From the NCBI GenBank assembly GCA_963422465.1, contig OY730172.1, forward strand, positions 2,480,001 through 2,544,000: a DNA stretch of 64,000 bases. The letters run 5' to 3'. This DNA comes from Lichina pygmaea. Taxonomy: Eukaryota > Ascomycota > Lichinomycetes > Lichinales > Lichinaceae. The translations under genes and the position numbers were made by a program. Positions 4,438 through 45,546 of this stretch are shown here, in pieces (position 1 is the first letter of the stretch; each line of letters starts with the position of its first letter). Below the pieces are notes generated by a model. It was not told where the DNA came from and searched no databases. It saw only the letters and a program-made list of their open reading frames with translations.

Positions 4438-4451
4438 TACTGTATATGATA

Positions 4452-12771: not shown

Positions 12772-12773
12772 CT

Positions 12774-12781
12774 TTGAAGAC
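12774..12781 (+). promoter_or_regulatory. Candidate self-priming primer-binding site of C
   Basis: ttgaagac starts two bases after the 5' LTR. It is the exact complement of gtcttcaa at 12565-12572, about 31 bp downstream of the TATA box, which is where the transcript should begin. No tRNA-type tgg PBS is present. Tf1-like chromoviruses prime with the 5' end of their own mRNA, so this would fit. The assignment is inferred from position and complementarity only. Confidence 0.4.
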
Positions 12782-18656: not shown

Positions 18657-20104
18657 TGTTGGAGTGCTTTCTCTGTGTTTGGTGAAGCTCTGCTTGGCAT
18701 TCTGATGTTTGCGTGTCACCCAAAATTGGCAAGGAATAGTGATTCCTTTGTTAAGTCTGATCTGTGCTGGTTGATTGCCAGCTGTGCCACTGGTAATAAT
18801 TGTACCCAATTGCTGTGGGTCTGGTTGATGTAATACTGTAAGTAAGTCTCCAGGACTTGGTTTGCTTGCTCTGTCTAGCTGTCAGTTCATGGGTGATAGG
18901 CTGTAGACATTTTGGGTTTTGTTCCTATGGCTGCACTGATTGTTTTCCAGTAGTTGGATGTGAAGAGTTTGTCTCTGTCAGTAATGACTGTGATTGGAAC
19001 TCTGTGGTCCCTGACCAATCTGTCCAGTAGGAGGTATCTCAACTACTCTGCTGTGTGGGTTTCCTTGAATGGTACCACTATTAGATATTTTGTGAATCTG
19101 TCCACTATCACCATAATCAAGTTGTAGGTGATTCCTGTGACTGGGTCTTTGGACTTGAGTAGCTTTGTGATGAAGTCTATTGACATGTCTTCCCACAGGC
19201 CTCTCAGTATTGTGTTTGGGTGTCTTTCTCCATATGGCTTATGTCTTCTGTGTTTGTTTTTCTGGCACAGTAGACATTTGCTGATGTAGCTTGTGACATG
19301 TTGTCAGAGGTTGATAACATTGTTCCCTGCCTGTTGGATAAGGTCTTTGGTCTTGGAGATTCCTGGGTGACTATGTGCTGGATTGTTGTGGTAGTTCCTT
19401 ATTAATTCCTCAGTGTCTTCTGCCATAAGCTTGTTGATCTGTGGTCAAGGCACCAGGTTCCCTTGCTAGTCCTGCTATAAGATTGTTCCTTGGTGTTCAT
19501 CATCTTCCATGTAGTCTTTTTGTCAGCTTAGTGTGTCTGCTCTCCTGTTGTCTTGTCTGGGGGTATACAAGATCTTAAACTTGTGTTGCCCTAGGAGTTC
19601 AGCCTATCTGACTTGTTGTCTGTTCAGCTTCTTGGTTGTCGTGAACATTGTCAGATTCTTGTGGTCTGTGAGAACAGTGAGTTCAGAACTACTTTCTGTG
19701 TACACTCTCCAGTATTCAAGTGTGTTGACAACTACTAGTAGCTCTTTATCATGGATATCATAGTTTTGTTCTGCTTGTGACATTTTGCGTGAGTAGTAGG
19801 CAACTGGGTGCCACTTGCTGTCTGCCTGTTGGCATAAACATGCTCCCACTACCTGATCTGAAGTGTCTGTCTCAATTCATGTCAGTTGGTCTGTCTTGAA
19901 GTTGAGGAGAACTGGTTCCTTGGCATTTTTTTTTTTTTGATTTTGATTTGATTCTTACACTGTTTGTAGCTTTACAGCCATGCAGATCTTCCAGCTAATA
20001 GTGAACTTCTTCAGAAAACCTTTAAAGGAATAAAAACTGAAGACAGGGAGGTGACTAGAAAGTGTAGCAAAAGGAAATCTTGTAGTGTCTGGTAGGAAAA
20101 GCTT

Positions 20105-23100
20105 CTAGATGTTGGAGTGTGAATAGTGAAGTTTGAAAGCCAGATTAAATTGGTTTAGTCTTTTCAAAGACATAAACCAGTACAGAAACTTCTGTAGAAG
20201 CTCTGGGTTTGAAATAATAGTAGTGAAATCTTGGGGGTTAAAGAGAGCATGTTGTCTTTGAATTGAGTAGAGAGAGCATGAAGAGGTGATATGCTTTACT
20301 GTCTCTTCTGCTTGACCACACATGCATAGGGGGGTAGGAAAGTCAGGGACTCCAGCTCTGAAAAGAAAACTTGCTAGACCAATTCTCCCAGTTCTGGTTT
20401 GCAGTAGTAGACTTGCCTCAGCTTTCTGTAGCTCTTTGTAGAGCTTTAGGTTGTTGTAGTGAGGTTTTTGGCAAAACACCTGCCATCCAGCATGGCCTTT
20501 TCTTTTCTTCTCCTCCCATTGGTTTTCCCACTCTTTAGTAAAGAGTATTTGTAGTTCTTTCTTTGAACTAGCCTGGTTAGTAGTTATTTGACTTAACCAA
20601 GTGAACTTCCAATTAGGAGAGATAGTTGAGCATTTCTTTAAAGGTTTCCTCAGTGAAGAAGTATAGGAAGAAATAGTAGAAAAGGTACTGTCAAGAAAGT
20701 CTTTCAGAGAGGAGGTTTGGATAGAAGATAGAAAACAAGCTGTGCGAAATTTAAAATAGAGATCTAGAGGTAAAAGAAAAAGCTCACTCTCTAATAGAAA
20801 AGAAGGAGTGGCTTTGAAAGCACCCCCAATAAGTCTCAGACATTTGTTTTGGAATATGATAAGAGGAAATATTAGAGGATTTTCTGAGTGGGTTGAACCA
20901 AATTCCCACTGCATAGCTCAGTACAGATCTGAGTATTGCAGTGTACACAAGGCGTGCTGTGAGAACTGGAAAGCCCCAGGTGGAGTAAGAGGTTCTAGAA
21001 AGAGAAGATAGTGCTTTTTGTGCTTTTTGAAGAATAATTCTCTGGTGTTTGTGCCAGTGGAGTTTGGCATCCAGGTACACTCCCAATACTCGCACTTCTT
21101 CTTTTGGTTTTAGAATCACATTCCCAAGTCTAAGCTTGAGCTGCAGATTGTCTGATCTTCTTCTGGAAAAATGAAGTATTTCATATTTCTCAGGAGAGAA
21201 GACTATTCCATGTCTTGCAGCCCAAGATAGACATTTAAGATGTGTATTCTTCAACTTCAGAAGGTTGCTTTTAAGAGAGTGTCCAAATGCAAGCAGATTT
21301 GTATCATCTGCAAATCCCAGAGCAGAAACACCAGTAGTAGGAGAATGTACAGTCTCATGAAGTTCAGAAATATAGAATAGAAAAAGAATAGGAGACAAAG
21401 GGGAACCTTGGGGAACTCCACAGTGAATAGGAATAGAAGAGGACTCAGAGTCATCAAAAACTAGAGTGGTGGTATGTCTGGTACAGAAAGAGAAGATCGA
21501 AGAAGTTAGCCAGAGAGGGATTCCTTTTCTCTCCAGAATCTTTTGAAGAATCTCTGGAAGAACTCTGTCATATGCTCCTGAGATGTCCAGAGAAAGTAGA
21601 GATGCAACCATGCCTTCTTTCCAGACTTTTTCCACTTGGGAAGTTAGAAGGAAAAGTGCTGATTCAGTTGATCTGCCTTTCCTGAACCCCATCTGGATTT
21701 CTGGCAAGAGTTTAGCCTCTTCTGCTACCTTGCTTAGTCTGGCTGCTGTAATAGCTTCCATCAGCTTGCCAGTTGTGTTTAGCAGAGCTATAGGGCGCCA
21801 GGCTTTAGCTTGGTTATAGATTCCCTTGCCAGGTTTTCTTAGACAGACTGTTTTTGCATTCTTGAATTTCTCTGGAAAGTATTGCAGTCTCCAGCATGTT
21901 GATGTGAGAACAGCTATAGCTTGGCAGAACTTGGGACCCAGAGCTTTCAGAAATCCATTTGGCAGCTTGTCTTTTCCTCCTGCTGTAAAAGGTTTCTTCT
22001 TGTTCAGAATTTGCTCCACTTCTTCAGTGGTAACCTCCTGAGAAAGCTGGATCTCTGGGGTACTCTGGTGACTTTCTGTACTTGGTTCTGGAACACGTGC
22101 TTCTGGAAAGAATTGAGCTGAGAAAGATTTTGTCTTCTCCTCAAAGCTTTTGGCTAGTCCTTCTTGAGTCTCCAGATCAGGGACCAGAGAAAGATCAGGG
22201 GTCTTGTTAGCTTTTGATTTTCCCCACTTTGCAAGCTTCCAGAATTTTGAGGAACTGGCTAGCTCATGAACTTGTTTTCTGAAGGTGTTCTGTTTGCCTT
22301 CTCTGACAGCTTTCTTCTTGAGCTTAGTTGCTTCTTCTAGCTCTTCTTGGCTTGCCTGTCCTCTGAGCACTTGTCTTCTTATTCTTCTTTCCTGCTTAAC
22401 TTTAGTTTGGATCTCTTGGTTCCACCAGGGGACTGAGTGGCTAGATTGCTTCTGGAGTTCTGTGCATCTGTCTGCTATTTCTTGGAGAAAGTGGTTAAGA
22501 TATTCCAAGTACTCATCCACTTCATGTTTATCTTGAAAGTGGAAGGGCAGCTGCAAATTATTACACTCTTGTTTTGCCAGGTTTGTGTCCAGTGTTTTCC
22601 AGTTCCTTTCTGGCTTCCAGGTTTTTCTTGGTGAGTCCAGGTCCAGGCTAGTTAGCACAGGTCTGTGGTCAGACCCATGAAAGAACTGCAAAGCAATTTT
22701 AGAAAAGATTAGAGAGTTAGAAAGAGAAGAAGATATAAAGGAAAGATCAATAGGTGAACAGAGTTTGTGGGAAAGAGATCTAGCTCTTGTGGGTGTAAAA
22801 GGTGCAATAGCTAACTCCAGATTTGAGTTTTTCATTAGAGTTTGGAACTTGTGTGCAGTGTCAGAATATAGTCTTCTTTTCTTTGACCAGTCAGGGTGGT
22901 GAAGATTTGAGTCTGTAAGAAGAATATGCTGCCCTTTTGCTTGTAAAGCATTTTGGAGTAGACAGAGAAGAGCTTCTGATGCTTGTAGGTAGTTCTCTTG
23001 ACTTGAGGGAGTGAAGTATAGATTATGCACCCACAGAGAAGTAGAGGTGTTTTCCAGATGAATTTCAAGAGAAACAAAGTCTTTACTCCAGAAAGTAGGG

Positions 23101-23345
23101 TGGAGAGATGACAGATTCAGGTTTTTGTTAATAAGAAAAAGAGTTCTACCAATCTCTGGAGAATATAAAGGAAGAAAAGAAGAAAAAACAGTTGAGGTGC
23201 TGGTTTGAAGGTGAGGATTCTTCCAGGGTTCTTGAAGTGCAATAATATCTACTTCTTGAAGAGTTGGGGTTGCTAGAAGTAGCTCTTGGACTGATTAGCT
23301 TTTCTGCACATTGTATTGAAGAAGTGTGAACTTTGTATTCTTCAT
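20105..23345 (-). pseudogene. LINE copy 2 ORF2 (endonuclease/RT), one stop and one frameshift
   Basis: Start at 23345. A CAA-to-TAA change near 23298-23296 stops the frame after about 15 codons. A 2-bp deletion near 20868 shifts the last quarter. Otherwise the sequence is nearly identical to the open ORF2 at 35117-38359, with endonuclease motifs (TDSNLHHPDW, FHGSDHRPV), RT motifs (SLDISGAYDR, GVPQGSPLSPILFLF, FADDTNLLAF) and the C-terminal CxC...H...C finger. Confidence 0.85.
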
Positions 23346-24742
23346 GTAGACATTTCATCTTCAAAGATCTTGAAGGGGTTGACTGACTGCTTTCCCCCTG
23401 TGTTTGTTGATCTTGTAGACAGAATTTGCACTTCTGGAGATCCTCCTCTGAGTCTCTCTGAGCTTCTAGTTGGCTCTGTGGTTTTCCGTCTTTTTCCCCC
23501 TGGAAGAGTCTGTATGAAGGGGAAAGTAACTGGAGACTGTGTGACTGGGACAGTGGTAGCAGTGGAGATCTCATACTTCCCTGGGCGGGAAATCCATGCC
23601 TCTCTTGCCTTCTTGACTGCTTCTTGGCGTACTGGGCATGTGCTAGCCCAGGCTGGGTGAGCTCCTTTGCAGTTGCTGCATTTTGGCTTTAGCAGTTGCT
23701 CAGGGATTTGGCAGGTTCTTCTTTCATGCTGGCCTCCACAGGCACCACATACAGCTTGATTCCTGCACAGGCGAGCTTGGTGTCCTTACCCAAAGCACTT
23801 GAAGTATTGTGCCACCACTGTGTTAGCCAGAAAAGGCTCTGCCTCATGCAATCTGTGGCCCAGCACTACTCCACTCTCAATTAGAAGATTGGCCTGTTCC
23901 GGGGTGGCCAGATCCAGGTGGAGTGAAGTAACTGGTTTCTTTTGAGCTATAGTCTTCTTTGACCAGTAGGCTCTTAGAATAGTGATTTGCTTGCTCAGGG
24001 ATGGGTTGCTGTTCTGGATAGTCTGGCGAGTTTTTTCCAGGTTTTCTGGCTGGATGTCTGTGGTTCTGACTCCATGAATCAACACTGGGAATCTCTTGGG
24101 TTGGATAGTTGCTTCCTTGGTAAAAATAGCTGATATCCAGGCAGAGTCTTTCTCCAGAAAACTCTTAGTCTCTTGGGTTTCAGTGTTAATAAGAATGTCC
24201 CCTGAGGGAAGTTTTCTCACTGCTCTGACTTGTTTATTATAGGGACTGGGGAGTCTGTCTTGGAGAGCTTGAAAAAGCTGGATGTGAGTCCTGTTGGCTA
24301 TATCAGGTGTCTGGTTACCAGGGTGGACAAGAACTTCCTTCAGAATCCTTGGAGCTAGAGGGATTTGAGCTGGGATATGTTTCTGAACAGCCTGGGCATA
24401 TGATGGCTTAGATTCTTGCTTGTCTAGCCGCTTGCTAATATTCTCCAGCTCCTGGAAAATCTTGTTGGTCAGACCAGTGGGGAGAGACTGGGTTTTGGTG
24501 GACTGGGCTTCCTTAGTACAAGAGTTTTTCTTAATATTCTCCCAGCTTTTCAGTACAGATTCTGGGGTAGCTTGAGTCTTGAGCCATGAGTCCAGTAGGT
24601 TGTAGTCATTCTGGAGAGCTGGATAGGGGGTAGAAGAACTAGGCTGAGTACCAGCAGAACTGGGAGCTGGCATTGTTGGAGAAGGTGTTGTTTTTCTGGT
24701 AGTGTTCTGGGAGGAGTCCGGTTTCTTCTTTTTGACAGGCAT
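23342..24742 (-). pseudogene. LINE copy 2 ORF1 (gag-like), one in-frame stop
   Basis: ATG at 24742 (MPVKKKKPDSS) to a stop at 23342 gives 467 codons. One TAA at about 23785-23783 falls inside the first zinc knuckle, right after FKCFG, where copy 1 has a Tyr codon. The N-terminal half is polar and Ser/Thr-rich, the middle has an RNA-binding-like fold region, and the C-terminal part holds three C-x2-C-x3/4-H-x4/6-C knuckles. The product would coat LINE RNA. The last codon overlaps the ORF2 start as ATGA. Confidence 0.8.
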
Positions 24743-27700
24743 AGGGTAGGTAACCTGCACAGTGGGTTGTTCACAAAGGGTCACCTGGTTCCTAGCAGTA
24801 ATTGCACAATCCTGGGACCACTCCCCAAGACTGTACTTTCCTGGGCAGTCTTTTCCAACTAGACTCTAGGGAAATCTGGCTGTATTAACTCAAGCTGGAG
24901 ACCACACCCCCTGCCTGAGCTTTCCTAGAGTTTTTCAACTCTACCAGCACTAGAGGCAAGCTCTAAACTATTTCTCTTATCCTGGGAGCCCTGATCTCCT
25001 TGATGCTAGATGTTTCTCTTGAGAGAAGTTCAAGCTGTTATCTGTCTGACTGGGAGTACTTGCTCAATCCTGGGACCACACCCCAAGACTGAGTGTTCCT
25101 AGGTAATTGGGGCCTGTCCCCAGTCTTTCAGAATCCCACTGGCCACTCTCTGCCTTGTTATAGATAGTCTGTTGGTTGTTGAAGTTGAAGATCGAAGATT
25201 CAGAGATCACAACTTTTGACAAACAAGCTGGGTTACCCAAAGTGATGGGTTTTCACCTTAAGGTTTTGGTGGTTCCCAACAGATACTCGCTTGGTTTCCA
25301 GAACTTCTGACAAAGTCCGGTGATTATCAGAAGTGATGGTCCTTGAACGTAGTGGTACTGGGAAGAGTTTTTGGTTCCTTGGCATAAGTGTTCTTGAGCT
25401 GTTGGAATACTTTTTGTTGTCTCTCCATCCACCAGTACTCCACATCCTTCTTTGTGAGTTCTGTCAGTGGTGTTGCTGTTTGTGAGTAGTTCTTGATGAA
25501 CTGTCAGTTGAAGTTGGCAAATCCTAGAAAGGCTTGTACTTCCTTAACTGATGTCAGTGTTGGCTATTACTGAATCACTTTGATTTTCTCAGGGTTGATC
25601 TTGATCCCTTCAATTCCTATGATGTATCTGAGGAATTCAACTTCCAGTTTGTTGAACTTGTATTTCTTCAGGTTGAGCTTGAGCCCTGCCTTTTGTAGGC
25701 ATCGTAGAACATCCTTCACATGTTTGGTATGTTCCTGTTGTGTGTTCAAGTAGATAAGAATATCATCCAAGTAGATGATAGCTGTTTGGTCTAGGTATAC
25801 TCTGATGATGTTGTTGATTAATGCTTGACATGTTGCTGGTGTGTTCGTGAGTCTGAATAGCATAACCAGATACTTGTAGTGTCTGTATCAGGTTCTGAAG
25901 GCTGTCTTCTATTCTTCTCCTTCTTTCATGTGTATCAGGTTGTATACTCCTTTCAAGTCCAGCTTGGTGAAGATTGTAGCTTGGCTGATCCTGTCTTGCA
26001 ATTTGTTCACATTTGGCAACAGATATCAGTTCTTGATGGTAATGTTGTTGAGTTTTCTGTAGTCCACACAAAGTTGAAGACTTCCATCTTTCTTTAGTGC
26101 AAATAGTATTGGGTATCCTGCTGGTGATTGAGATTCTTGAATGAAACCCTTTTTCAGGTTTTCCTCCAGGTACTCGTGAAGTACTTGGAGCTCTTTCTCT
26201 GATAACTGGTAAATTGGTCTAAATCCTGGCTCTGTCCCTGGTTGCAACTTGATCTTATAATCCCAAGGTTGGTGCTTAGGCAACACTGCTGTTGTTATCT
26301 CTTCCTGAAAGAGGTTATCATACCCAGGTCAGTACTCTTCAGGGATCTCCAGAGGGTTAACAACTTCCTCTCTCTTTATCTCTGACTGTTTGGCCACCTG
26401 GTTCTGGGGTATGCCTGTCAAGGTGGACCTCTTCTCTTGAGAGTTGTCTTTTCTGTTGGTGAGGTTCCACTGAGGACTCCTTCCCTTATCTGTCCACACT
26501 TTCTGCGGCTGGTAACAGGTCTGAGCTGTGTTGTTAGTGCAGTTCCTAAATGTGAGTACTCCTGTCCTCCAGTTAACAACTGGCTTGTGTTTCTTTAGCC
26601 AAGGCATCCCCAAATAGATATCCTGAGTGGCCAACTTGACAATATCAAGGTGGATCCTTTCAGCATGGTGTCCGGTAACTATTTCCATTGGCTGCGTCTT
26701 ATGGCAGACTAGCTCTGTCTGTCTATTTGCTATTGCGAGCTGATAGGGCTGCTGCTTATGTCTCCTTCCAGTGCCAAGGGTGTTATAAAGTTGTCTTGAA
26801 ATGTAGTTTCCACTGGCTCCAGAGTCAACAAGTGTGTATGTCTGTACTGGCATGTTGGCGTGTAGTGACACAGGTAATCGCAGGTGCTTTGCATTGCTAG
26901 GGGTCATGTTGTTGAGCTCCTGATATCACCTCTTGACAAGGGAGTTCAGTCTTTTTCTGATTGAAGTATTTTTTCACTGACTGGGCAATGAGTCCAGCCA
27001 TTCCTATCAGTTCTGAGGAATCTGTTCATGAATTTGTCTTGCTGATGCTTGTCACATCCAGGCTTAAGGCAGTACTGCCAGTTGTTGATGTAGCAGTTGT
27101 TGTTGTTGCCTTGCTGTAGGAACATGAGGTGTTTGTGCCAATCATGTGTGTGCCCAGGGAATACAGTGTGTTGGTGTTTGTCCCAAAGATAGATCTCACA
27201 CACATCCTTCTTGCAATTGACCCAATACTTGTGGCAGATGGCACAGTAGGGTGAATGTCCTCTGTAACTTTGTAGTTGTTTGTGGTAGGTGTAGTAGTGC
27301 TTTGTGCAAAACCTCCACTGTAGTTTGCCGTGCTATAGATTTTGTGAGTCCATGCTGTAAGCATAGCTTCCTTGTGGTATTTCTTCTTTGATAGACACAG
27401 GTTTATCTCAGTCCCCATCAGAGGTGGTTAAGAGCTCCTATCCCTTATCCTGACCTGTCTGTTCTGGTAGGTCCTTGCCTCCTGATGTTGCCAGTTGGTG
27501 GGCTGCTTCCAATGTCTGATTGTAGTTGTCCTATTGTTTGAGGGATAGCTGAGCCTCTCCTGGTAGATCCTCTGGCTTGATGATATTCCAGTCTCTGTCA
27601 AGTGTATTAAGTTGCTGTCAGTACACCTTGTTCTTTGAACAACAGTCTCTCACCATGTGGTCTAGCTTGCCACAGGCATAGCACTTCAGTACTTTCTTTT

Positions 27701-30213: not shown

Positions 30214-30772
30214 TGTTACAACCCATGGGATGGGAGCCACTTATTTATAGGCAATCAGGCCATGGGCCAGGCAAGAGGACACCATGGAAGTCAAGTGACC
30301 AACCAACAAGGGGTCACGTGACTGTCAAGACACACACAGGAGTCTTGACACAGCATGCATGAAGCATCAAGACAATCTCACCAGTCTTGACGCAGGATAC
30401 ATGAAGTATCAAGACAATCTCACCAGTCTTGACACAGGGTGCATAACATGGTGGGACTGTCAAGACAATCTCACCTGTCTTGACATCAAGACTGTCAAGA
30501 CAATCTTGATTGTCTTGACAGGCCAGCACTATATAGTCTGACAATAGTTCCCCTATAGAACAATTATCTTCAACTTATGTTGTGATCCAGACAACTAGAT
30601 CTACTTCAATACAATCTCTTTGTACAAAGCCATTGATCAGGTGTCACCACCACTATGTTCCACCAAACCCCTTCACACTCCTTGACACTCCTCTCCTACG
30701 AGAACCAACCTGTCTTCCACCTCTCACCCTAATCCTATACTCAGATAGGACAGTACAGTACAGACTGCAACA
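30214..30772 (+). repeat. 5' LTR of chromovirus B
   Basis: 559 bp, TG...CA, the same U3 type as element A (tandem ~42-bp units with caagacaatctcaccag), with a gtcacgtgac E-box-like word and a TATATAG box. Confidence 0.9.
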
Positions 30773-33700: not shown

Positions 33701-35116
33701 AGCCTTCCTAGGATTTACCAACTTTAACTGACAGTTTATCAAGAACTACTCACAAACAACAACACCACTGACAGAACTCACAAAGAAGGATGTGGAGTAC
33801 TGGTGGACAGAGAGATAACAAAAAGTATTCCAACAGCTCAAGGACACTTGCGCCAAGGAACCAGTTCTCCTCAACTTCAAGACAGGCCAACCAACACAAA
33901 TCAAGACAGACACTTCAGATCAGGCAGTGGGAGTATGTTTATACCAACAGGCAGACAGCAAGTGGCACCCAGTTACCTACTACTCACGCAAAATGTCATA
34001 AGCAGAACAAAACTATAATATCCACAACAAAGAGCTACTGGCAGTTGTCAACACACTTGAACACTGGAGAGTGTACGCAGAAAGCAGTTCTGAACTCACT
34101 GTTCTCACAGACCACAAGAATCTGACAACGTTCACGACAACCAAGAAGCTGAACAGACAACAAGTCAGATAGGCTGAACTCCTAGAGCAATACAAGTTTA
34201 AGATCTTGTACACCCCCAGACAAGATAACAGGAAAGCAGACACACTAAGCTGACAAAAAGACTACATGGAAGATGATGAACACCAAGGAATGATCTTACA
34301 GCAGGACCAGCAAGGGAACCTGGTGCCTTGACCACAGATCAACAAGCTCACGGCAGAAGACACTGAGGAATTAATAAGAAACTACCACAACAATCCAGCA
34401 CATAGTCACCCAGGAATCTCCAAGACCACAGACCTTATCTAATAGGCAGGGAACAATGTCATCAACCTCTGACAACATGTCACAAGCTACATCAGTAAAT
34501 ATCTACTGTGCCAGAAAAACAAACACAGAAGACACAAGCCATATGGAGAAGGACACCCAAACATGATACCAAGAGGCCTGTGGGAAGATGTGTCAATAGA
34601 CTTCATCACAAAGCTACCCAAGTCCAAAGACCCAGTCACAGGAATCACCTATGACTTGATTATGGTGATAGTGGACAGATTCACAAAATATCTAATAGTG
34701 GTACTATTCAAGGAAACCCACACAGCAGAGCAGTTGGGACACCTCCTACTAGACAGATTGGTCAGGAACCACAGAGTTCCAATCACAGTCATTACTGACA
34801 GAGACAAACTCTTCACATCCAACTACTGGAAAACAATCAGTGTAGCCATGGGAACAAAACCCAAAATGTCTACGGCCTATCACCCACAAACTGACAGCCA
34901 GACAGAGTGAGCAAACCAAGTCCTGGAGACTTATTTGTGGTATTTTGATTTGATTTGATTTGATTCTTACACTGTTTGTAGCTTTACAGCCATGCAGATC
35001 TTCCAGCTAATAGTGAACTTCTTCAGAAAACCTTTAAAGGAATAAAAACTGAAGACAGGGAGGTGACTAGAAAGTGTAGCAAAAGGAAATCTTGTAGTGT
35101 CTGGTAGGAAAAGCTT

Positions 35117-38100
35117 CTAGATGTTGGAGTGTGAATAGTGAAGTTTGAAAGCCAGATTAAATTGGTTTAGTCTTTTCAAAGACATAAACCAGTACAGAAA
35201 CTTCTGTAGAAGCTCTGGGTTTGAAATAATAGTAGTGAAATCTTGGGGGTTAAAGAGAGCATGTTGTCTTTGACTTGAGTAGAGAGAGCATGAAGAGGTG
35301 ATATGCTTTACTGTCTCTTCTGCTTGACCACACATGCATAGGGGGGTAGGAAAGTCAGGGACTCCAGCTCTGAAAAGAAAACTTGCTAGACCAATTCTCC
35401 CAGTTCTGGTTTGCAGTAGTAGACTTGCCTCAGCTTTCTGTAGCTCTTTGTAGAGCTTTAGGTTGTTGTAGTGAGGTTTTTGGCAAAACACCTGCCATCC
35501 AGCATAGCCTTTTCTTTTCTTCTCCTCCCATTGGTTTTCCCACTCTTTAGTAAAGAGTATTTGTAGTTCTTTCTTTGAACTAGCCTGGTTAGTAGTTATT
35601 TGACTTAACCAAGTGAACTTCCAATTAGGAGAGATAGTTGAGGATTTCTTTAAAGGTTTCCTCAGTGAAGAAGCATAGGAAGAAATAGTAGAAAAGGTAC
35701 TGTCAAGAAAGTCTTTCAGAGAGGAGGTTTGGATAGAAGATAGAAAACAAGCTGTGCGAAATTTAAAATAGAGATCTAGAGGTAAAAGAAAAAGCTCACT
35801 CTCTAATAGAAAAGAAGGAGTGGCTTTGAAAGCACCCCCAATAAGTCTCAGACATTTATTTTGGAATATGATAAGAGAGGAAATATTAGAGGATTTTCTG
35901 AGTGGGTTGAACCAAATTCCCACTGCATAGCTCAGTACAGATCTGAGTATTGCAGTGTACACAAGGCGTGCTGTGAGAACTGGAAAGCCCCAGGTGGAGT
36001 AAGAGGTTCTAGAAAGAGAAGATAGTGCTTTTTGTGCTTTTTGAAGAATAATTCTCCGGTGTTTGTGCCAGTGGAGTTTGGCATCCAGGTACACTCCCAA
36101 TACTCGCACTTCTTCTTTTGGTTTTAGAATCACATTCCCAAGTCTAAGCTTGAGCTGCAGATTGTCTGATCTTCTTCTGGAAAAATGAAGTATTTCATAT
36201 TTCTCAGGAGAGAAGACCATTCCATGTCTTGCAGCCCAAGATAGACATTTAAGATGTGTATTCTTCAACTTCAGAAGGTTGCTTTTAAGAGAGTGTCCAA
36301 ATGCAAGCAGATTTGTATCATCTGCAAATCCCAGAGCAGAAACACCAGTAGTAGGAGAATGTACAGTCTCATGAAGTTCAGAAATATAGAATAGAAAAAG
36401 AATAGGAGACAAAGGGGAACCTTGGGGAACTCCACAGTGAATAGGAATAGAAGAGGACTCAGAGTCATCAAAAACTAGAGTGGTGGTACGTCTGGTACAG
36501 AAAGAGAAGATCCAAGAAGTTAGCCAGAGAGGGATTCCTTTTCTCTCCAGAATCTTTTGAAGAATCTCTGGAAGAACTCTGTCATATGCTCCTGAGATGT
36601 CCAGAGAAAGTAGAGATGCAACCATGCCTTCTTTCCAGACTTTTTCCACTTGGGAAGTTAGAAGGAAAAGTGCTGATTCAGTTGATCTGCCTTTCCTGAA
36701 CCCCATCTGGATTTCTGGCAAGAGTTTAGCCTCTTCTGCTACCTTGCTTAGTCTGGCTGCTGTAATAGCTTCCATCAGCTTGCCAGTTGTGTTTAGCAGA
36801 GCTATAGGGCGCCAGGCTTTAGCTTGGTTATAGATTCCCTTGCCAGGTTTTCTTAGACAGACTGTTTTTGCATTCTTGAATTTCTCTGGAAAGTATTCCA
36901 GTCTCCAGCATGTTGATGTGAGAACAGCTATAGCTTGGCAGAACTTGGGACCCAGAGCTTTCAGAAATCCATTTGGCAGCTTGTCTTTTCCTCCTGCTGT
37001 AAAAGGTTTCTTCTTGTTCAGAATTTGCTCCACTTCTTCAGTGGTAACCTCCTGAGAAAGCTGGATCTCTGGGGTACTCTGGTGACTTTCTGTACTTGGT
37101 TCTGGAACACGTGCTTCTGGAAAGAATTGAGCTGAGAAAGATTTTGTCTTCTCCTCAAAGCTTTTGGCTAGTCCTTCTTGAGTCTCCAGATCAGGGACCA
37201 GAGGAAGATCAGGGGTCTTGTTAGCTTTTGATTTTCCCCACTTTGCAAGCTTCCAGAATTTTGAGGAACTGGCTAGCTCATGAACTTGTTTTCTGAAGGT
37301 GTTCTGTTTGCCTTCTCTGACAGCTTTCTTCTTGAGCTTAGTTGCTTCTTCTAGCTCTTCTTGGCTTGCCTGTCCTCTGAGCACTTGTCTTCTTATTCTT
37401 CTTTCCTGCTTAACTTTAGTTTGGATCTCTTGGTTCCACCAGGGGACTGAGTGGCTAGATTGCTTCTGGAGTTCTGTGCATCTGTCTGCTATTTCTTGGA
37501 GAAAGTGGTTAAGATATTCCAAGTACTCATCCACTTCATGTTTATCTTGAAAGTGGAAGGGCAGCTGCAAATTATTACACTCTTGTTTTGCCAGGTTTGT
37601 GTCCAGTGTTTTCCAGTTCCTTTCTGGCTTCCAGGTTTTTCTTGGTGAGTCCAGGTCCAGGCTAGTTAGCACAGGTCTGTGGTCAGACCCATGAAAGAAC
37701 TGCAAAGCAATTTTAGAAAAGATTAGAGAGTTAGAAAGAGAAGAAGATATAAAGGAAAGATCAATAGGTGAACAGGGTTTGTGGGAAAGAGATCTAGCTC
37801 TTGTGGGTGTAAAAGGTGCAATAGCTAACTCCAGATTTGAGTTTTTCATTAGAGTTTGGAACTTGTGTGCAGTGTCAGAATATAGTCTTCTTTTCTTTGA
37901 CCAGTCAGGGTGGTGAAGATTTGAGTCTGTAAGAAGAATATGCTGCCCTTTTGCTTGTAAAGCATTTTGGAGTAGACAGAGAAGAGCTTCTGATGCTTGT
38001 AGGTAGTTCTCTTGACTTGAGGGAGTGAAGTATAGATTATGCACCCACAGAGAAGTAGAGGTGTTTTCCAGATGAATTTCAAGAGAAACAAAGTCTTTAC

Positions 38101-38359
38101 TCCAGAAAGTAGGGTGGAGAGATGACAGATTCAGGTTTTTGTTAATAAGAAAAAGAGTTCTACCAATCTCTGGAGAATATAAAGGAAGAAAAGAAGAAAA
38201 AACAGTTGAGGTGCTGGTTTGAAGGTGAGGATTCTTCCAGGGTTCTTGAAGTGCAATAATATCTACTTCTTGAAGAGTTGGGGTTGCTAGAAGTAGCTCT
38301 TGGACTGATTGGCTTTTCTGCACATTGTATTGAAGAAGTGTGAACTTTGTATTCTTCAT
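35117..38359 (-). CDS. LINE ORF2: endonuclease-reverse transcriptase, open over 1080 codons
   Basis: Encodes the polyprotein that nicks DNA and reverse-transcribes LINE RNA at the nick. The APE-type endonuclease lies at about residues 1-230 (QYNVQKSQ, ALQEPW, TDSNLHHPDW, SDHRPV). The reverse transcriptase lies at about 430-760 (KPFTAGGKDKLPNGF, RPIALLNTTGK, SLDISGAYDR, GVPQGSPLSPILF, FADDTNLLAF with the catalytic DD). The C-terminal domain ends in a CMCGQAEETVKHITSSC finger. I see no RNase H domain, which many Tad-clade elements carry. The ATG at 38359 overlaps the ORF1 stop as ATGA. No stop or frameshift is visible, unlike the other copies. The upstream ORF1 is truncated by the chimeric junction. 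Confidence 0.92.
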   Translation of the reverse strand: MKNTKFTLLQYNVQKSQSVQELLLATPTLQEVDIIALQEPWKNPHLQTSTSTVFSSFLPLYSPEIGRTLFLINKNLNLSSLHPTFWSKDFVSLEIHLENTSTSLWVHNLYFTPSSQENYLQASEALLCLLQNALQAKGQHILLTDSNLHHPDWSKKRRLYSDTAHKFQTLMKNSNLELAIAPFTPTRARSLSHKPCSPIDLSFISSSLSNSLIFSKIALQFFHGSDHRPVLTSLDLDSPRKTWKPERNWKTLDTNLAKQECNNLQLPFHFQDKHEVDEYLEYLNHFLQEIADRCTELQKQSSHSVPWWNQEIQTKVKQERRIRRQVLRGQASQEELEEATKLKKKAVREGKQNTFRKQVHELASSSKFWKLAKWGKSKANKTPDLPLVPDLETQEGLAKSFEEKTKSFSAQFFPEARVPEPSTESHQSTPEIQLSQEVTTEEVEQILNKKKPFTAGGKDKLPNGFLKALGPKFCQAIAVLTSTCWRLEYFPEKFKNAKTVCLRKPGKGIYNQAKAWRPIALLNTTGKLMEAITAARLSKVAEEAKLLPEIQMGFRKGRSTESALFLLTSQVEKVWKEGMVASLLSLDISGAYDRVLPEILQKILERKGIPLWLTSWIFSFCTRRTTTLVFDDSESSSIPIHCGVPQGSPLSPILFLFYISELHETVHSPTTGVSALGFADDTNLLAFGHSLKSNLLKLKNTHLKCLSWAARHGMVFSPEKYEILHFSRRRSDNLQLKLRLGNVILKPKEEVRVLGVYLDAKLHWHKHRRIILQKAQKALSSLSRTSYSTWGFPVLTARLVYTAILRSVLSYAVGIWFNPLRKSSNISSLIIFQNKCLRLIGGAFKATPSFLLESELFLLPLDLYFKFRTACFLSSIQTSSLKDFLDSTFSTISSYASSLRKPLKKSSTISPNWKFTWLSQITTNQASSKKELQILFTKEWENQWEEKKRKGYAGWQVFCQKPHYNNLKLYKELQKAEASLLLQTRTGRIGLASFLFRAGVPDFPTPLCMCGQAEETVKHITSSCSLYSSQRQHALFNPQDFTTIISNPELLQKFLYWFMSLKRLNQFNLAFKLHYSHSNI

Positions 38360-38579
38360 GTAGACATTTCATCTTCAAAGATCTTGAAGGGGTTGACTGA
38401 CTGCTTTCCCCCTGTGTTTGTTGATCTTGTAGACAGAATTTGCACTTCTGGAGACCCTCCTCTGAGTCTCTCTGAGCTTCTAGTTGGCTCTGTGGTTTTC
38501 CGTCTTTTTCCCCCTGGAAGAGTCTGTATGAAGGGGAAAGTAACTGGAGACTGTGTGACTGGGACAGTGGTAGCAGTGG

Positions 38580-39696
38580 CCACAGTCGTAGTATGCCAGA
38601 ACATAGTGTAGAGTTGGCACCCCCCCACAGGGTCTCTACCACGCTTTCCCACAGTCCCGAGGTCTCTTGCACTCCGCCGTACGTGCTCACCCCTGGGATC
38701 CTGCTTCGGAGCGCTGGGTCACCAGCCCAGAGCCCACGCTCCAACTGTAGTTTGCTCCCTGAGCTCGTCGTTTGCAGCCTAATCCTGCACTCCGTACGAA
38801 CCGGCATGCGCATCCGTCCTCTCGGGCCATATAGACAGTCTCGTAGTAGGCCCAGGCCCTACCTCCGTCACTGCCATTATATGCCACGCCTCGCAGTTGT
38901 TAACTGTTTCGCGTTACCTTCGCAGATCTCTCGTACGAAGGCCGACCATGCCTCGCAGGCCTTACGGATCCTGCAGGCCGTGCCAGCACCTGCAGGGCCG
39001 CCTTTCCAGCCCACTAACCAAGTAGGGAGGAGTTCTCCTTGGTCCGCTGTCGCCTGTGGGGCCCCGGTTGCACCTGTTGGCCCACTGGATAACCCAGTCC
39101 CCTGGCCCCAGATTGTGGATCGTACGAAGAGACTTCGTGGCAAGGCCTTAGGCAAAACCATCAAGCCAGCACTTTGGCTATCACACGGCCCTTAGGCACT
39201 GGAGCGGCGACGTCTCCTCGTACGACCACTCTCCTTCTTTAACAGGTGGTCCCCGTTCGATTAACAACGCCGCGGTGCCAAGGCCACTCCCCCCCTAGCA
39301 GATCCTCACGCGTTAGCTGGAGACTCTGCTAGGAGGGTGACGTGACGAGAACTCCTCTCGACTACTCCAGAGGTGCCCTATCAGACGCCTAGACTTCACA
39401 TCCACCAGCTGTGGGGCTGGCTTCGGGCCGTAGCGTACACGGTAGTCGTCTGTCGGGTGGTTTTCCTCTCCCAAGCTTGGTCGCAGTCCTCTGTTCTGCT
39501 GTAGCTGTTTCACGGGGGCATCCAGGGTGCCTGCGCGACACCTCCGGTGGCCCGTCGCTCCGCAACACCAGCAGCTCGACCGGTGACTCGATTAGCTCTC
39601 GGTGCAGCGACTACGAGCAGCCTGGGAAGCCGCCCGCCATCGACTGCCCCGAGGTTCCCAGCCTGCACCACGTGGAGGTTCGAGTCGTTGCAGGCC
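38580..39696 (-). other. Foreign 5' module of chimeric LINE 1 (WEIRD-like)
   Basis: 1117 bp, starting ggcctgcaacgactcgaacc on the minus strand and ending cgactgtgg at the LINE junction. It aligns over its whole length with 43729-44852 and with nothing in the two full-length LINEs. It is GC-rich, unlike the LINE. A short frame in both copies encodes AYNGSDGG/SR...WAYYETVYMAREDG, and another encodes LLPTWLVGWKGGPAGAG. The position and ~1.1-kb size recall the WEIRD part of Magnaporthe MINE elements. I could not compare the sequences. Confidence 0.75.
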
Positions 39697-40878
39697 TATT
39701 TGTGGTATTACATCAACCAGACCCACAGTAATTGGGTACAATTATTACCAGTGGTACAGCTGGCAATCAACCAGCACAGATCAGACTCAACAAAGGAATC
39801 ACTATTCTTTGCCAATTTTGGACAACACACAAACATCAGAATGCCAAGCAGAGCTTCACCAAACATGGAGAAAGCACTCCAGCATAACAAGCTCCTACAA
39901 CAAACACACATGATGATGAAGCATTACCTTCAAGAGACCTCAGAAAAGATGTAACACTAAATAGACAAAAAATCAAAAATAACACCTCAGCTGAAGAAGG
40001 GGGATAAAGTCTACCTCCTCACAAAAAATTGGAAAGTTAAGAAACCAAGAATAAAGAAACTGGACCATGTCAAGGTCAGACTATTTTCAGTTGAAGAAAG
40101 AACTAGACCAGTCAACATCAGACTGTGACTACCGAGAGACACTCGGGTACACCCAAACTTTCATATCTCAATGATCAAATTAGCCGACCAGAGCACACCC
40201 TTGCAGGAAACATTTCATTACCAACCAGAGGAAGAACAGGAATTCAAGGTTGAACAGATCTTGAAGAGAAAAGGTCAGCGATACCTTGTCAAGTGGAAAA
40301 ACTACCCAGACTCAGAAAATACCTGGGAACCACTCAGGAACCTTGTGAACTGCCAGCTCCTTCTGCAGCAGTTCCGGCAGTAGCAGGACTGAACAGCTCA
40401 GCCTGCAGTGCGGATGTGTCAATGACTGTCACTGACAAGTCTTCACCATCCACCTCCATCTTAGCAACAAGGCACTGGAGCTTCTTCTTTGCTCAACCCT
40501 CAGCACCTTCAAGAACTTTTCACTGTCAGGACACACAAGCCTGCAGTTCGGCAAGCTGCTCAACAAGAGTGTCCCACTTGGCCTCATCAACAGCCAAATC
40601 CTTATGAAGGTTATCTTGGGTCATGTTCAGCAACTCCTAAGAAAGTGACACACAAGACTTCCCATGACAAGTGCATTCAGCACACTTTAACTTATTATTG
40701 TTGTCAGACATTCAGAAGCAGGGCTTGTGGTTCAAAACACAGAAGTCACACAGAGCAAGCAACACAAAGTTATGATCACAGATCTGGGCTGCCAGTTATT
40801 TTCAGTAAGCAGAGGCATGTGATTTTGCAGACATACTCAAGAATTCATCAGGACAATGAATGAAGAAGAGGAGGGTAG

Positions 40879-41438
40879 TGTTATGACCCATGGGATGGGA
40901 GCCACTTATTTATAGACAATCAGGCCGCGGGCCAGGCAAGAGGACACTATGGAAGTCAAGTGACCAACCAACAAGGGGTCACGTGACTGTCAAGACACAC
41001 ATGGGAGTCTTGACGCAGCATGCATGAAGCATCAAGACAATCTCACCAGTCTTGACACAGGATGTATGAAGCATCAAGACAATCTCACCAGTCTTGACGC
41101 AGGGTGTATAACATGGTGGGACTGTCAAGACAATCTCACCTGTCTTGACATCAAGACTGTCAAGACAATCTTGATTGTCTCAACAGGCCAGCACTATATA
41201 GTCTGACAATAGTTCCCCTATGGAACAATCATCTTCAACTCATGTTGTGATCCAGACAACTAGATCTACTTCAATAAAATCCTTTTGTACGAAGCTATTG
41301 ATCAGGTGTCACCACCACCACGTTCCACCAAACCCCTTCGCACTCCTTGACACTCCTCTCCTGCGAGAACCAACCTGCCTTCCGCATCTCACCCTTAATC
41401 CTATACTCGGTTAGGACAGCATGGTACAGACTGCAACA
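40879..41438 (+). repeat. 3' LTR of chromovirus B
   Basis: 560 bp, same layout as the 5' LTR. A purine-rich stretch (gaagaagaggagggtag) stands directly before it. It ends gcaaca before the AGAGT target copy. Confidence 0.9.
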
Positions 41439-42598
41439 AGAGTGTACAGTTTCATGAAGTTCAGAAATGTAAAATAGAAATAGAATAGGAGATAAAGAGG
41501 AATCTTGGGAAACTCCACAGTGAATAGGAATAGCAGAAGACTCAGAGTCATCAAACACAAGAGTGGTAGAATGACTGGTGCAGAAAGAGAGAATCCAGGA
41601 AGATAGCCAGAGAGGAATTCCTTTTCTCTCTAGGATTTGTTGGAGGATCTTAGGTAGAACTCTGTCATAGGCTCCTGAGATATCCAGAGAAAGTAGAGAT
41701 GCAACCATGCCTTCCTTCCAGACTTTTTCCACTTGGGAAGTTAGTAGGAAGAGTGCTGATTCAGTTGATCTTTCTTTCCTGAAGCCCATCTGGATTTCTG
41801 GCAAAAGTCTAGCTTCTTCTGCTACCTTGCTTAGCCTGGTTGCTGTAATAGCTTCCATCAGCTTGCCAGTTGTGTTTAGCAAAGCTATAGGGCGCCAGGC
41901 TTTAGCTTGGTTATAGCATCCTTTACCAGGTTTTCTTAGACAGACTGTCTTTGCATTCTTGAACCTCTCTGGAAAGTATTCCAGTCTCCAGCATGTTGAT
42001 GTGAGAACAGCTATAGCTTGGCAGAACTTGGAACCCAGAGCTTTCAGAAATCCATTTGGCAGCTTATCTTTTCCCCCTGCTGTGAAAGGTTTCTTTTTGT
42101 TCAGGATTTGTTCCACTTCTTCAGCAGTAACTTCCTGTGAAAGCTGGATCTCTGGAGTACTCTGGGAACTCTCTGTACTTGGTTCTGGAACAAGTGCTTT
42201 GGGGAAGAACTGGGCTGAGAATGCTTTTGTCTTCTCCTCAAAGGTTTTAGCTAGTCCTTCTTGAGTTTCCAAGTCTGGGACCAGGGGAAGATCAGGAGTC
42301 CTGTTGGCCTTTGTTTTTCCCCACTTTGCAAGCTTCCAGAATTTTGAAGAACTGGCTAGCTCATGGACTTGTTGTCTGAAGGTGGTCTGCTTTCCCTCTC
42401 TGACTGCTTTTTTCTTGTTCTTAGTTGCTTGCTCAAGGTCTTCTTGGGATGCCTGTCCTCTGAGAACTTGTCTTCTTACTCTTCTTTCCTCTCTAACCTT
42501 GTTTTGGATGTCTTGGTTCCACCAGGGAACTGAGTGACCAGATTGCTTCTGGAGCTGTGTACATTTGCTTGCCACTTCTTGGAGAAAGTTGTCCAGGT

Positions 42599-43039
42599 TT
42601 TTTTGATTTTTTTGATTTGATTCTTACACTGATTTGGCTGTTAAGTCATGCAGAACTTCTTGAAGGATTTTTGTCTCTGGTAGACTTGACTCGGGGACCT
42701 CACGCATTTACCGTACACCCCGTGGTTTGTAGTGTACGTACTGTGGGAAAACCCCAAACCCCGTAGGGGAAATAGGAAAACCACAGTAATGAGGGTTTTG
42801 TGGATCTTGACAGATATTGGGTGAGCTATTTCTTGGGGGTTTTCATACATCTTGCGAGGAGTACATCTTAGACAAGTTCTATGAATCTCGGGGGTTTTTG
42901 TGGCAGAATGTGGGGTGGGTCAGATTCGAACTGACGACTAGTTTAGTCAGGTTCTCCAGGCCTGACACCACTAGTTCCGGGTCATGGGTGCCACGTAGTG
43001 GGAAACTCTCACCAGCTTCCCGCTACACCATGCCGCCCC
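42599..43039 (-). mobile_element. tRNA-derived SINE with LINE-like 3' tail
   Basis: 441-bp insertion in LINE copy 1, with TSD aagttgtccaggt at 42586-42598 and 43040-43052. On the minus strand the head has an A-box-like tggtgtagcggg (43030-43019) and a B-box-like agttcgaatct (42932-42922). The spacing is wider than in a tRNA gene. The body has no ORF. The 3' end contains ctgcatg...cagtgtaagaatcaaatcaaa, nearly the same as the 3' end of the LINEs in this window. SINEs often borrow the 3' end of a partner LINE so that its RT recognises them, which explains the match. Confidence 0.8.
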
Positions 43040-43728
43040 AAGTTGTCCAGGTACTCCAAGTACTTATCCACTTCATTTTTGTCTTGAAAGTGGGAAGGTA
43101 GCTGTAGCTTCTCACACTCTACTCTTGTAAGGTTTGAGTCCAGTGTCTTCCAGTTCCTTTCTGGCTTCCAGGTTTTCCTTGGAGGATCCAGGTCCAGGCT
43201 AGTTGGTATAGGTCTGTGGTCAGACCCATGAAAGAACTGGAGAGCCACTTTAGAGAAAATCAGGGAGTTAGAAAGAGAAGAAGAAATAAAAGACAGATCA
43301 ATTGCAGAACATGGTTTTTCTGAAAGAGATCTTGCTCTGGTGGGAGTAAAAGGTGCAATAGCTAAATCCAGATTTAAATCTTTCATTAGACCTTGGAACT
43401 TGTTTGCAGTGTCAGAGTACAGTCTTCTTTTCTTTGACCAGTCTGGGTGGTGGAGGTTTGAATCTGTGAGAAGAATATGTTGTCCTTGTACTTGTAAAGC
43501 ATTTTGAAGTAAACAGAGAAGAGCTTCTGTTGCCTCTGTATAGTTTTCTTGACTTGATGGGGTAAAGTAAAGATTATGCACCCAAAGAGAAGTAGAAGAG
43601 TTTTCTAAGTAGATTTCAAGAGAAATAAAGTCTTTACTCCAGAAAGTAGGATGAAGAGAAGAGAGTTTCAGGTTTTTGTTAATAAGAAAAAGTGTTCTAC
43701 CAATCTCTGAACAGTAAAGAGGAAGAAA

Positions 43729-44852
43729 GGCCTGCGAAGACTCAAACCTCCACGCGGTGCAGGCTGGGAACCTCAGGGCAGCGATGGCAGGCAGTCTCCC
43801 AAGCTGCTTGTAGTCGCTGCACCGAGAGCTAATTGAGTCACCGGTCGAGCTGCTGGTGCCCGTGGAGCGACGGGCCACCGGAGGTGTTGTGCAGGCACCC
43901 TGGACACCCCCGTGAAGCGACATCAGCAGAACAGAGAACTTCGACCAAACTGGTTATGAAAACCACCCGACGGATGTCTACCGTGTACGCTACAGCCCGA
44001 AGCCAGCCTTGCAACTGGTGGATGTGAAGTCTAGACACCTGACAGGGCATCTCTGGAGTAGACGAGAGGAGTTCCTATCGCACACCCCCCTTCTGGCAGA
44101 GTCTCCAGCAGCTGATGCATCAAGGATCTTGTTCTAGGAGGGGAGCGATGTCTGTACCGCGGTGTTGTTAATCGAACAGGGACTACGTGTTAAAGAAGGC
44201 GAGCAGGTGGCACGAAGGGTTTCCGCCACTCCAGTACCTAAGGGCTGTGTGATAGTCAAAGTGCTGGCTTGATGGTTTTGCCTAAGGTCTTGCCACGGAT
44301 TCTCTTCGGGCCACCTACAGACTGGGGCTAGGGCACTGGAGGTTCTCCAGTGGGCCACCACGTACATCCGGGGTCCCACAGGCGACAGTGGGCAGACGGA
44401 GACTTCTCCCTACTTGGTTAGTGGGCTGGAAAGGCGGTCCTGCAGGTGCTGGCATGGCCTGCAGGGTCTGTAGAGCCTGCGAGGCATGGTCGGCCTCTGT
44501 GCGAGAGATCTACAGAGATAACGCGAAACAGCGAGAGCTGCGGGGCGTGGCATATAATGGCAGTGACGGCAGTAGGGTCTGGGCCTACTACGAGACTGTC
44601 TATATGGCCCGAGAGGACGGAAGCGCATGCCGGTCTGTACAGAGTGCAGGCTCAGGCTGCAAATGACGGGCTCAAGGAGCAAACTGCAGTTGGAGCGTGG
44701 GCTCCGGGCTGGCAACCCGGCGCTCCGAAGCAGGACCTAGGGGTGAGCGTACACAGCGGAGCGCAAAAGACCTCAGGACTGCGGGGAAGCGTGGCAGAGA
44801 CCCTGCACGGGATGTCGACTCTGCGCTATGCCTCGGCATAGCTCAACTGTGG
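43729..44852 (+). other. Foreign 5' module of chimeric LINE 2 (WEIRD-like)
   Basis: 1124 bp, homologous end to end with 38580-39696 (inverted). It starts ggcctgc and ends actgtgg, exactly as in the other copy, although the LINE sequence that follows is different. An ORF at 44388-44666 reads LLPTWLVGWKGGPAGAG...AYNGSDGSR, and the same peptide segments occur in the other copy. No known domain was recognised. Confidence 0.75.
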
Positions 44853-45368
44853 TCTGAAGCTCTACAAAGAGTTACAGAAAGCTGAGGCAAGTCTGCTACT
44901 GCAAATCAGGACTGGAAGAATTGGTCTGGCAAGTTTTCTTTTCAGAGCTGGAGCTCCTGACTTCCCTACCCCACTATGTGTGTGTGGCCAAGCAGAAGAA
45001 ACTGCAAAACATATCACCTCTTCATGCTCTCTTTATTCAAGACAAAGACAACAAGTCTCTTTTAATCCCCAAGACTTCACCACTATTATTTCAAACCCAG
45101 AGCTACTACAGAAGTTCTTGTACTGGTTTATGTCTTTGAAAAGACTAAACCAGTTTAATCTAGCTTTCAAACTCCACTATTCCCAATCCAATACCTAGAT
45201 TCTCTTCTCTTACCAGAAACTTCAAGATTCCTTTTGTTACATTCCCTAGTCACACCCTGCCTTCAGTTTTTATCCCTTCAAAGGTTTTCTGAAGGAGTTC
45301 ACTATTAGCTAGAAGATCTGCATGGCTGTAAAGCTACTACCAGTGTAAGAATCAAATAAAAAATAAAA
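43729..45368 (+). mobile_element. Chimeric LINE 2: foreign 5' module plus 0.5-kb LINE 3' end
   Basis: 1.64-kb insertion on the plus strand inside ORF2 of LINE copy 1, with TSD taaagaggaagaaa at 43715-43728 and 45369-45382. Bases 43729-44852 are the foreign module, starting ggcctgcgaagactcaaacc. From about 44853 it becomes the last ~0.5 kb of the LINE: the ORF2 C-terminus with CGQAEETAKHITSSC, then a 3' UTR ending gtgtaagaatcaaataaa. It was inserted in the opposite orientation to its host LINE. Confidence 0.9.
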
Positions 45369-45546
45369 TAAAGAGGAAGAAAAGAAGAGAAAACAGTAGA
45401 GGTGCTTGTCTCCAGGTGAGGGTTTTTCCAGGGTTCTTGAAGTGCAATAATGTCCACCTCTTGAAGAGCTGAGGTTGCTAGAAGTAGCTCTTGGACTGAT
45501 TGGCTTTTTTGCACATTATACTGGAGAAGTGTGAGCTTTGAGTCTT

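Follow-up and report, generated by a model that had tools for sequence, protein, structure and literature searches.

A non-coding module with a ribozyme-like 5′ fold joined at variable points to truncated LINEs in Lichina pygmaea

A 64,000-nt stretch of the Lichina pygmaea genome (the window; positions 2,480,001 to 2,544,000 of contig OY730172.1, here C4) contains two insertions in which a common non-coding module of about 1.1 kb is joined to the 3′ part of a long interspersed nuclear element (LINE). The genome assembly comprises 32.5 Mb in 8 contigs, seven of them chromosome-sized. Searches for scytalone dehydratase and for 5.8S rRNA gave no match, the control of the former being negative too. 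The insertions, named A and B, their target-site duplications (TSDs), their predicted structures resembling the hepatitis delta virus (HDV) ribozyme, and a reference LINE lie in the window as follows.

19927..25371, minus strand: LINE without the module, used as the reference copy, with its own 14-bp TSD
34932..34944, no strand: TSD of insertion B, 13 bp, perfect
34945..38579, minus strand: 5′-truncated LINE joined to module B, 3635 nt, from LINE base 1807 to the 3′ end, 99.5% identical to the LINE at 19930-23565
35117..38359, minus strand: open LINE open reading frame 2 (ORF2) of insertion B, 1080 aa, with endonuclease and reverse transcriptase (Pfam PF00078, 1.8e-34; PF14529, 6.3e-15)
38580..39696, minus strand: module B, 1117 nt, 83% identical to module A
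38590..38639, minus strand: two predicted 3′-terminal hairpins of module B, the second with one mismatch in this copy
39585..39696, minus strand: predicted HDV-like ribozyme fold of module B (RF00094, 38.1 bits, E 0.0073; pair counts)
39697..39709, no strand: TSD of insertion B, 13 bp, perfect
43715..43728, no strand: 5′ copy of the TSD of insertion A, 14 bp, perfect
43729..44852, plus strand: module A, 1124 nt, non-coding, with its 5′ end at the predicted ribozyme cleavage site and its 3′ end at ACTGTGG
43729..43839, plus strand: predicted HDV-like ribozyme fold of module A, with P1, P2 pseudoknot, P3, P4 and J4/2 (RF00094, 37.7 bits, E 0.0087; pair counts)
44794..44842, plus strand: two predicted 3′-terminal hairpins of module A, followed by a 10-nt tail ending in CTGTGG (folding and covariation)
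44853..45368, plus strand: 5′-truncated LINE 3′ fragment joined to module A, 516 nt, 88% identical to LINE bases 4923-5441
45369..45382, no strand: 3′ copy of the TSD of insertion A, 14 bp, perfect

Each insertion is a module and a 5′-truncated LINE enclosed by a single perfect TSD, TAAAGAGGAAGAAA for A and, on the element strand, AATACCACAAATA for B. The modules can be aligned end to end, both terminate in ACTGTGG, and LINE sequence follows directly in each. An initial annotation of the window had described two chimeric LINEs that leave a shared foreign module at the same bases and continue for 3.6 and 0.5 kb of LINE with an ORF2 still open, and all of this was confirmed. It had also named two full-length LINEs that lack the module. 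This holds for the reference copy, which starts at ACTCTTCCC, where the compared LINE copies begin to resemble one another, but not for the other one (its copy 1), in which the LINE sequence begins only at base 1807. The partner shows the marks of a LINE, namely domains for endonuclease and reverse transcriptase, 5′ truncation and a TSD, and it probably belongs to the Tad/MGL clade. Two ORF1-like ORFs had no Pfam match.

The module is abundant in the genome. Its 3′ end has 224 exact pattern matches genome-wide and the reversed control 1, which excludes chance, and its 5′ end has 235 matches at ≤3 mismatches and the control 0. These counts are free of bias toward full-length copies. For comparison, the tails of the window-type LINE alone, other LINE families being outside this count, number 1147 at ≤2 mismatches, with 1 for the control. 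On contig C1, 10 of 53 perfect LINE tails have a module 3′ end on the same strand within 5.8 kb upstream, intervening tails being unchecked. Searches with modules A and B returned 302 and 303 first-look candidates, and the best 40 from each search were scored. Every main match with A ends at base 1124 and every one with B at base 1117, while 38/40 and 39/40 start at base 1 and the others at base 2.

For a closer look at the joins, 136 junctions were collected. Eighty come from the best-scoring matches (40 + 40 of about 300 candidates each), which are biased to full-length modules, and the other 56 (20 on C1 and 36 on C1-C3) were taken in pattern order along these contigs; individual copies carry L numbers below. 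The module 3′ end fits the exact pattern in 132 of the 136 and differs by one base in the other four. It is followed by LINE in 130, by a second, 5′-truncated module in three (L026, L047 and L064), and by a non-LINE stretch and then LINE in one; two junctions are unclassified. Among the 130, the LINE was recognized by blastn to the window LINE in 100 and by translated search only in 17, and the remaining 13 have nucleotide similarity to other junction LINEs only, which is a weaker link. Breakpoints lie ≤5 nt from the junction in 67 of the first 100 junctions and range from LINE base 894 to 5038; in L014 and L058 the LINE begins farther 5′, near base 350-365. The fixed module border with variable LINE truncation, proposed from two insertions, extends to this sample of junctions.

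Such chimeras could have multiplied mostly as ready-made units of module and LINE, with few independent joins. Nine groups of copies do have the same first 40 nt past the module, as this explanation expects. However, the 136 junctions comprise 124 different 40-mers, and modules sharing a breakpoint can be unlike each other, being of A type and B type in one case (L038 and L069) and 32 changes apart in another (L012 and L027). Since unlike modules meet at these shared breakpoints, the breakpoints recur independently, apparently as hot spots, and multiplication mostly as units is highly improbable.

The module is also copied independently of the LINE. The modules of L011, L012 and L013 have 0 differences over 1124 nt, whereas the LINE sequences joined to them match the window LINE at 73%, 81% and 99.7% identity, respectively, and begin at different breakpoints. 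Modules were further compared in a 20-copy alignment and a 36-module tree. In the tree, young A copies form a star, other A-type branches lie deeper and the B modules make up a distant clade, A and B modules being 80-85% alike. Because LINEs ≥98.5% identical to the window copy are joined to 12 A and 7 B modules, both lineages have been active recently. A second, GC-rich group of LINEs (downstream GC mostly 55-68%; L088-L107 and L128-L163) follows both A-type and B-type 3′ ends; the module is joined to several LINE families. The module is 1117-1157 nt long in the 20 copies, and the many short insertions and deletions between A and B make a conserved protein unlikely. In the same alignment, columns 540-569 and 720-749 are 90% and 97% identical, compared with 80-85% overall; these near-invariant blocks are possible promoter or RNA-binding sites.

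At the other end of the module, a TSD of 10-14 bp was found between the 5′ flank and the LINE tail in 14 of 21 chimeras, adjoining module base 1. In L019 and L025 the repeat lies farther on, L010 and L022 have only 8-9 bp matches off the tail, and no TSD was found for L020, L027 and L028, the last at a contig end. Twenty copies were chosen by an intact start (positions 1-35) alone, and 16 of them reach the regular 3′ end, L110 across an inserted element of ~446 bp. The TSDs enclose module and LINE together, and no clear solo copy occurs among the 136 junctions, apart from the two that are unclassified. The module is then not an independent transposon at these sites, in line with the initial annotation, nor did these junctions yield the clear solo copies with a TSD that, along with a 3′ end of its own recognized by the LINE machinery, mark a short interspersed nuclear element (SINE).

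The same counts bear on the possibility that the module is a housekeeping non-coding RNA of the host, the status suggested for the WEIRD sequence discussed below, trapped by the LINE as U6 is in mammals and leaving dead retropseudogenes. Fixed ends and a structured RNA would suit this origin, and the youngest A copies are nearly identical, as if from a single source. On the other hand, an assembly with seven chromosome-sized contigs has yielded no clear solo gene in 136 junctions (two unclassified, and 92 of the 224 ends outside the set). Two lineages 15-20% apart with recent copies would require that at least two source genes were missed, and the 224-235 module copies amount to about one fifth of the window-type LINE tails. 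We regard a host RNA as rather unlikely; it concerns the origin of the module only and is compatible with the template jumping discussed below.

The module starts with a fold that resembles a self-cleaving ribozyme. The top Rfam match at both module starts in the window is RF00094, the HDV ribozyme, with the predicted cleavage point at module base 1, and four further copies score 32.3-40.4 bits. In a genome-wide search, in which 86 of 1614 candidates were scored, the one match at E ≤ 0.001 is a module copy (43.9 bits). The nested double pseudoknot of P1-P4 with a C in J4/2 is present, and this C, presumably the catalytic one, is invariant in an alignment of 30 sequences. Both this alignment and that of 38 sequences used for the 3′ end were hand-picked from the sequences fetched. 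In the 30 copies (22 distinct), 97.6% of cells in the fold are paired, compared with 28-35% when the partners are slid. P2 and P4 each contain one covarying pair, P1 and P3 are invariant and uninformative, and the paired cells and the covariation score were each matched by 4 of 500 shuffles. Related sequences can beat shuffles without structure, against which the slid controls argue, and the folds were chosen with the same sequences in view. A G-U pair lies at the predicted cleavage site. These results suggest that the module begins with an HDV-like ribozyme that would cleave itself from its transcript.

Because HDV-like ribozymes are known at LINE 5′ ends, in R2 and in the L1Tc/ingi clade (PMC12203849, PMC4035085), the module might instead be a 5′ untranslated region (UTR) that belongs to a LINE family, from which the chimeras would derive by internal deletion or recombination. 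However, the window-type LINE starts without a module directly ahead, the breakpoints are spread over the LINE instead of the module holding a fixed position at a full-length start, identical modules are joined to different LINE families, and the sole genome match to RF00094 at the above threshold, among the candidates scored, is a module copy. The idea is extremely improbable, and the earlier view stands that this LINE family has something other than the module as its regular 5′ UTR.

The 3′ end is structured as well. The last 60 nt can fold into two hairpins, in each of which one pair covaries between A and B. In the 38 copies (17 distinct), 99.1% of cells pair, compared with 16-54% in slid controls, and the covariation score was reached by 0 of 500 shuffles. 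Thermodynamic folding is weak, with z at -2.3 for A and -0.3 for B over the last 60 nt and at -1.0 and +1.0 over the last 140 nt, and four further 64-nt pieces gave no folding signal, those of L117 and L126 having missed the 3′ end; the hairpins are thus supported by the alignment-based counts only. Known 3′-end types were also considered. A transfer RNA (tRNA)-like end with a CCA landing site was rejected, as the window contains no tRNA according to ARAGORN and A, present in 30 of 100, is not enriched at the third junction base, and an H/ACA-like end was rejected because the two hairpins are accompanied by no ACA box by eye.

The LINE bases at the junction follow a pyrimidine rule. The first two are CC in 72, TC in 25 and CT in 22 of the 136 junctions (119/136 together), compared with a background in the window LINE of 6% for CC and 31% for any pyrimidine pair. 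The binomial tails are <1e-40, which is inflated by related copies, and CC is still found in 63 of the 124 distinct joins. These bases belong to the donor LINE, since the dinucleotide is present at the same place in another LINE copy for 19 of 21 junctions, all except L012 and L027. Trans-splicing was rejected because AG is not the rule before the LINE breakpoint, and microhomology between the final G of the module and the LINE was rejected because the preceding base is G in only 5 of 41.

Instead of being made during reverse transcription, the join could be made by a cellular RNA ligase that links module RNA to the 5′ end of cleaved LINE RNA, with ordinary target-primed reverse transcription afterward. 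This route would yield the same insertions, with the module 3′ end fixed, the LINE start variable, and the orientation and TSD unchanged, and a preference for LINE RNA cleavage before pyrimidines would account for the CC/TC/CT rule. Ligation is also a treated alternative to template switching for U6/LINE-1 chimeras (PMC13174262). Nevertheless, one and the same ligatable RNA would be needed in the great majority of the 136 joins, and double modules would need an additional ligation. Fungi generally have RNA ligase of the Trl1 type and are not known to use the RtcB type. We hold ligation to be a serious though unlikely alternative; it concerns the join only and is compatible with a selfish module.

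We consider it likely that the module is a selfish, LINE-dependent RNA that is copied when a LINE reverse transcriptase jumps template onto its 3′ end. The jump from LINE RNA to the 3′ end of a separate RNA, already proposed in the initial annotation, is supported by these results, with RNA ligation as its rival. Because ligation bears on the joining step and a host RNA on the origin, the likelihoods given to these two overlap with that of the preferred reading. A jump to the 3′ end of module RNA would produce the observed exact 3′ end next to variable LINE starts, and reverse transcription that runs to the end of an RNA cleaved by the ribozyme would produce the exact 5′ end adjoining the TSD. 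In R2, template jumping by a LINE-type reverse transcriptase needs no sequence similarity (PMC12203849).

In the proposed course, the module would be a selfish non-coding retroelement that has neither a protein nor its own priming 3′ tail and whose RNA is probably supplied by existing chimeric copies. The HDV-like ribozyme would free the 5′ end, so that RNA base 1 becomes base 1 of the copies, and the RNA would have a fixed 3′ end bearing hairpins and terminating in ACTGTGG. A LINE reverse transcriptase would begin target-primed reverse transcription on LINE RNA, depart from it at a pyrimidine step (CC more than TC or CT), resume on the 3′ end of the module RNA, and copy the module to its ribozyme-made 5′ end, leaving module and truncated LINE within one TSD. 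Double modules may arise by a further jump or from a chimeric donor RNA.

Several observations weigh against this reading. No cause of the pyrimidine rule is proven, and cleavage of RNA followed by ligation could account for it equally well. L089 and L128 are the unclassified junctions, and the 92 exact 3′ ends outside the junction set, 7 of them covered for a few dozen nucleotides, may include a solo source gene. Among the copies picked by their 5′ end, 4 of 20 stop short of the regular 3′ end. In L112 (C1:977340-978593) the module stops at base 885, where LINE sequence from near base 4415 follows, a join at an internal module position. The modules of L108, L114 and L119 give way to other sequence near bases 345, 343 and 175, respectively, perhaps because of later insertions or rearrangements. 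In L037 (C1:1603-2002), 252 nt of non-LINE sequence separate the module from the LINE start, which is covered for 88 nt; this module starts 540 bases from the contig end, and the 252 nt possibly belong to a LINE transcript begun upstream of the element. As for the structures, the RF00094 scores (32.3-43.9 bits) are under the Rfam cut-off of 50, and the number of covarying pairs, two in each structure, was reached by 328 of 500 shuffles for the ribozyme fold and by 346 of 500 for the 3′ hairpins.

Other repeats lie around these insertions. Nested copies of a long-terminal-repeat-type element, gypsy-like with a chromodomain by eye, lie between about 10 and 35 kb of the window (12525-16944 and 30526-34944, ~92% identical), and LINEs and module B are inserted into them. 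An element of ~440 bp at 42600-43039 ends with the LINE-type tail TTTGATTTGATTCTTACACTG (plus strand), and on the minus strand its head looks tRNA-derived, with A- and B-box-like motifs by eye; ARAGORN found no tRNA in it. This element is probably a LINE-dependent SINE. A copy of it that is 96% alike splits the module of L110 at base 886.

The closest published counterpart is MINE of Magnaporthe, in which a sequence called WEIRD, 1113 nt long, is joined to the MGL LINE (PMC2104539). The likeness suggested by the initial annotation holds for the architecture: a full-length, non-coding 5′ part of about 1.1 kb and a 5′-truncated LINE 3′ part in the same orientation within TSDs, together with a double-jump chimera, the lack of a solo copy, and breakpoint hot spots (PMC2104539). 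The dinucleotide before the published site is CC in 11, TC in 4, CT in 2 and GC in 1 of the 18 rows of the MINE Table 3 by our tally (PMC2104539), a make-up not different from ours (chi-square p 0.74, with small numbers), although it lies outside the LINE part in MINE and inside it here, which may be a matter of annotation. The likeness does not extend to sequence as far as it could be compared: two WEIRD primers (40 nt in all; PMC3978060) and one MINE primer have matches in the modules that do not exceed those of their shuffled versions, so homology with WEIRD is unsupported and the module is not shown to be WEIRD. The systems also differ in scale, with 33 bipartite and one tripartite chimeras in MINE and 224-235 module ends here, and in partners, which are mainly MGL, but also Mg-SINE and another LINE, in MINE and several LINE families here. 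No mention of a ribozyme was found in the available parts of the MINE account (PMC2104539), whereas the module has a ribozyme-like 5′ fold.

U6/LINE-1 and other mammalian LINE-1 chimeras are similar in that TSDs surround a truncated LINE and a non-LINE RNA joined to it in sense orientation (PMC13174262), but there the partner is a host RNA, whereas the 1.1-kb module forms its own lineages and the 136 junctions revealed no clear gene for it. R2 (PMC12203849) and trypanosomatid elements of the L1Tc/ingi clade (PMC4035085) likewise have an HDV-like fold at a retroelement 5′ end. In these cases the ribozyme is the LINE's own or that of elements with a LINE 5′ end, whereas the window LINE is without a ribozyme and a ribozyme-bearing RNA is joined to it at variable points. 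Variant HDV ribozymes of fungi, of which 230 were reported in 26 species with 'widely variable gene associations' and cleavage was demonstrated for two bimolecular constructs (PMC5640933), have an extra nucleotide between P2 and P3 in common with the modules, but their cleavage-site pair is typically C-G instead of G-U. The word 'retrotransposon' is absent from the main text of that survey as available (PMC5640933). Our literature search, which most subscription papers lay outside, found no paper linking HDV-like ribozymes to LINE chimeras or to MINE/WEIRD.

While the MINE-type architecture is known, a ribozyme-like 5′ end and a structured 3′ end on such a chimera are new here. Together with the scale, the several LINE families, the pyrimidine rule and the double modules, they go beyond the initial annotation. 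Non-autonomous retroelements are held to exploit LINEs by mimicking the LINE 3′ end, where copying starts. Such mimicry has been stated for Mg-SINE (PMC2104539), whereas the module appears to exploit another LINE step, the jump. We see about an even chance that it represents a distinct kind of retroelement, one that replicates solely as an acceptor of reverse transcriptase template jumps, with its 5′ end made by a ribozyme and a structured 3′ end as landing site, as a parasite of any LINE in the genome and with no host gene, WEIRD and some fungal HDV variants being possible members.

The roughly 220 natural joins, with their hot spots and junction rule, provide material on how LINE enzymes swap templates. 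The link between an HDV-like ribozyme and LINE chimeras makes the catalogued fungal ribozymes directly testable for the same link. The missing WEIRD gene was ascribed by the MINE authors to an incomplete genome (PMC2104539). The answer proposed here is that WEIRD may be a selfish RNA, not a host gene, and, if it is a jump acceptor of this kind, that would explain why its gene was never found.

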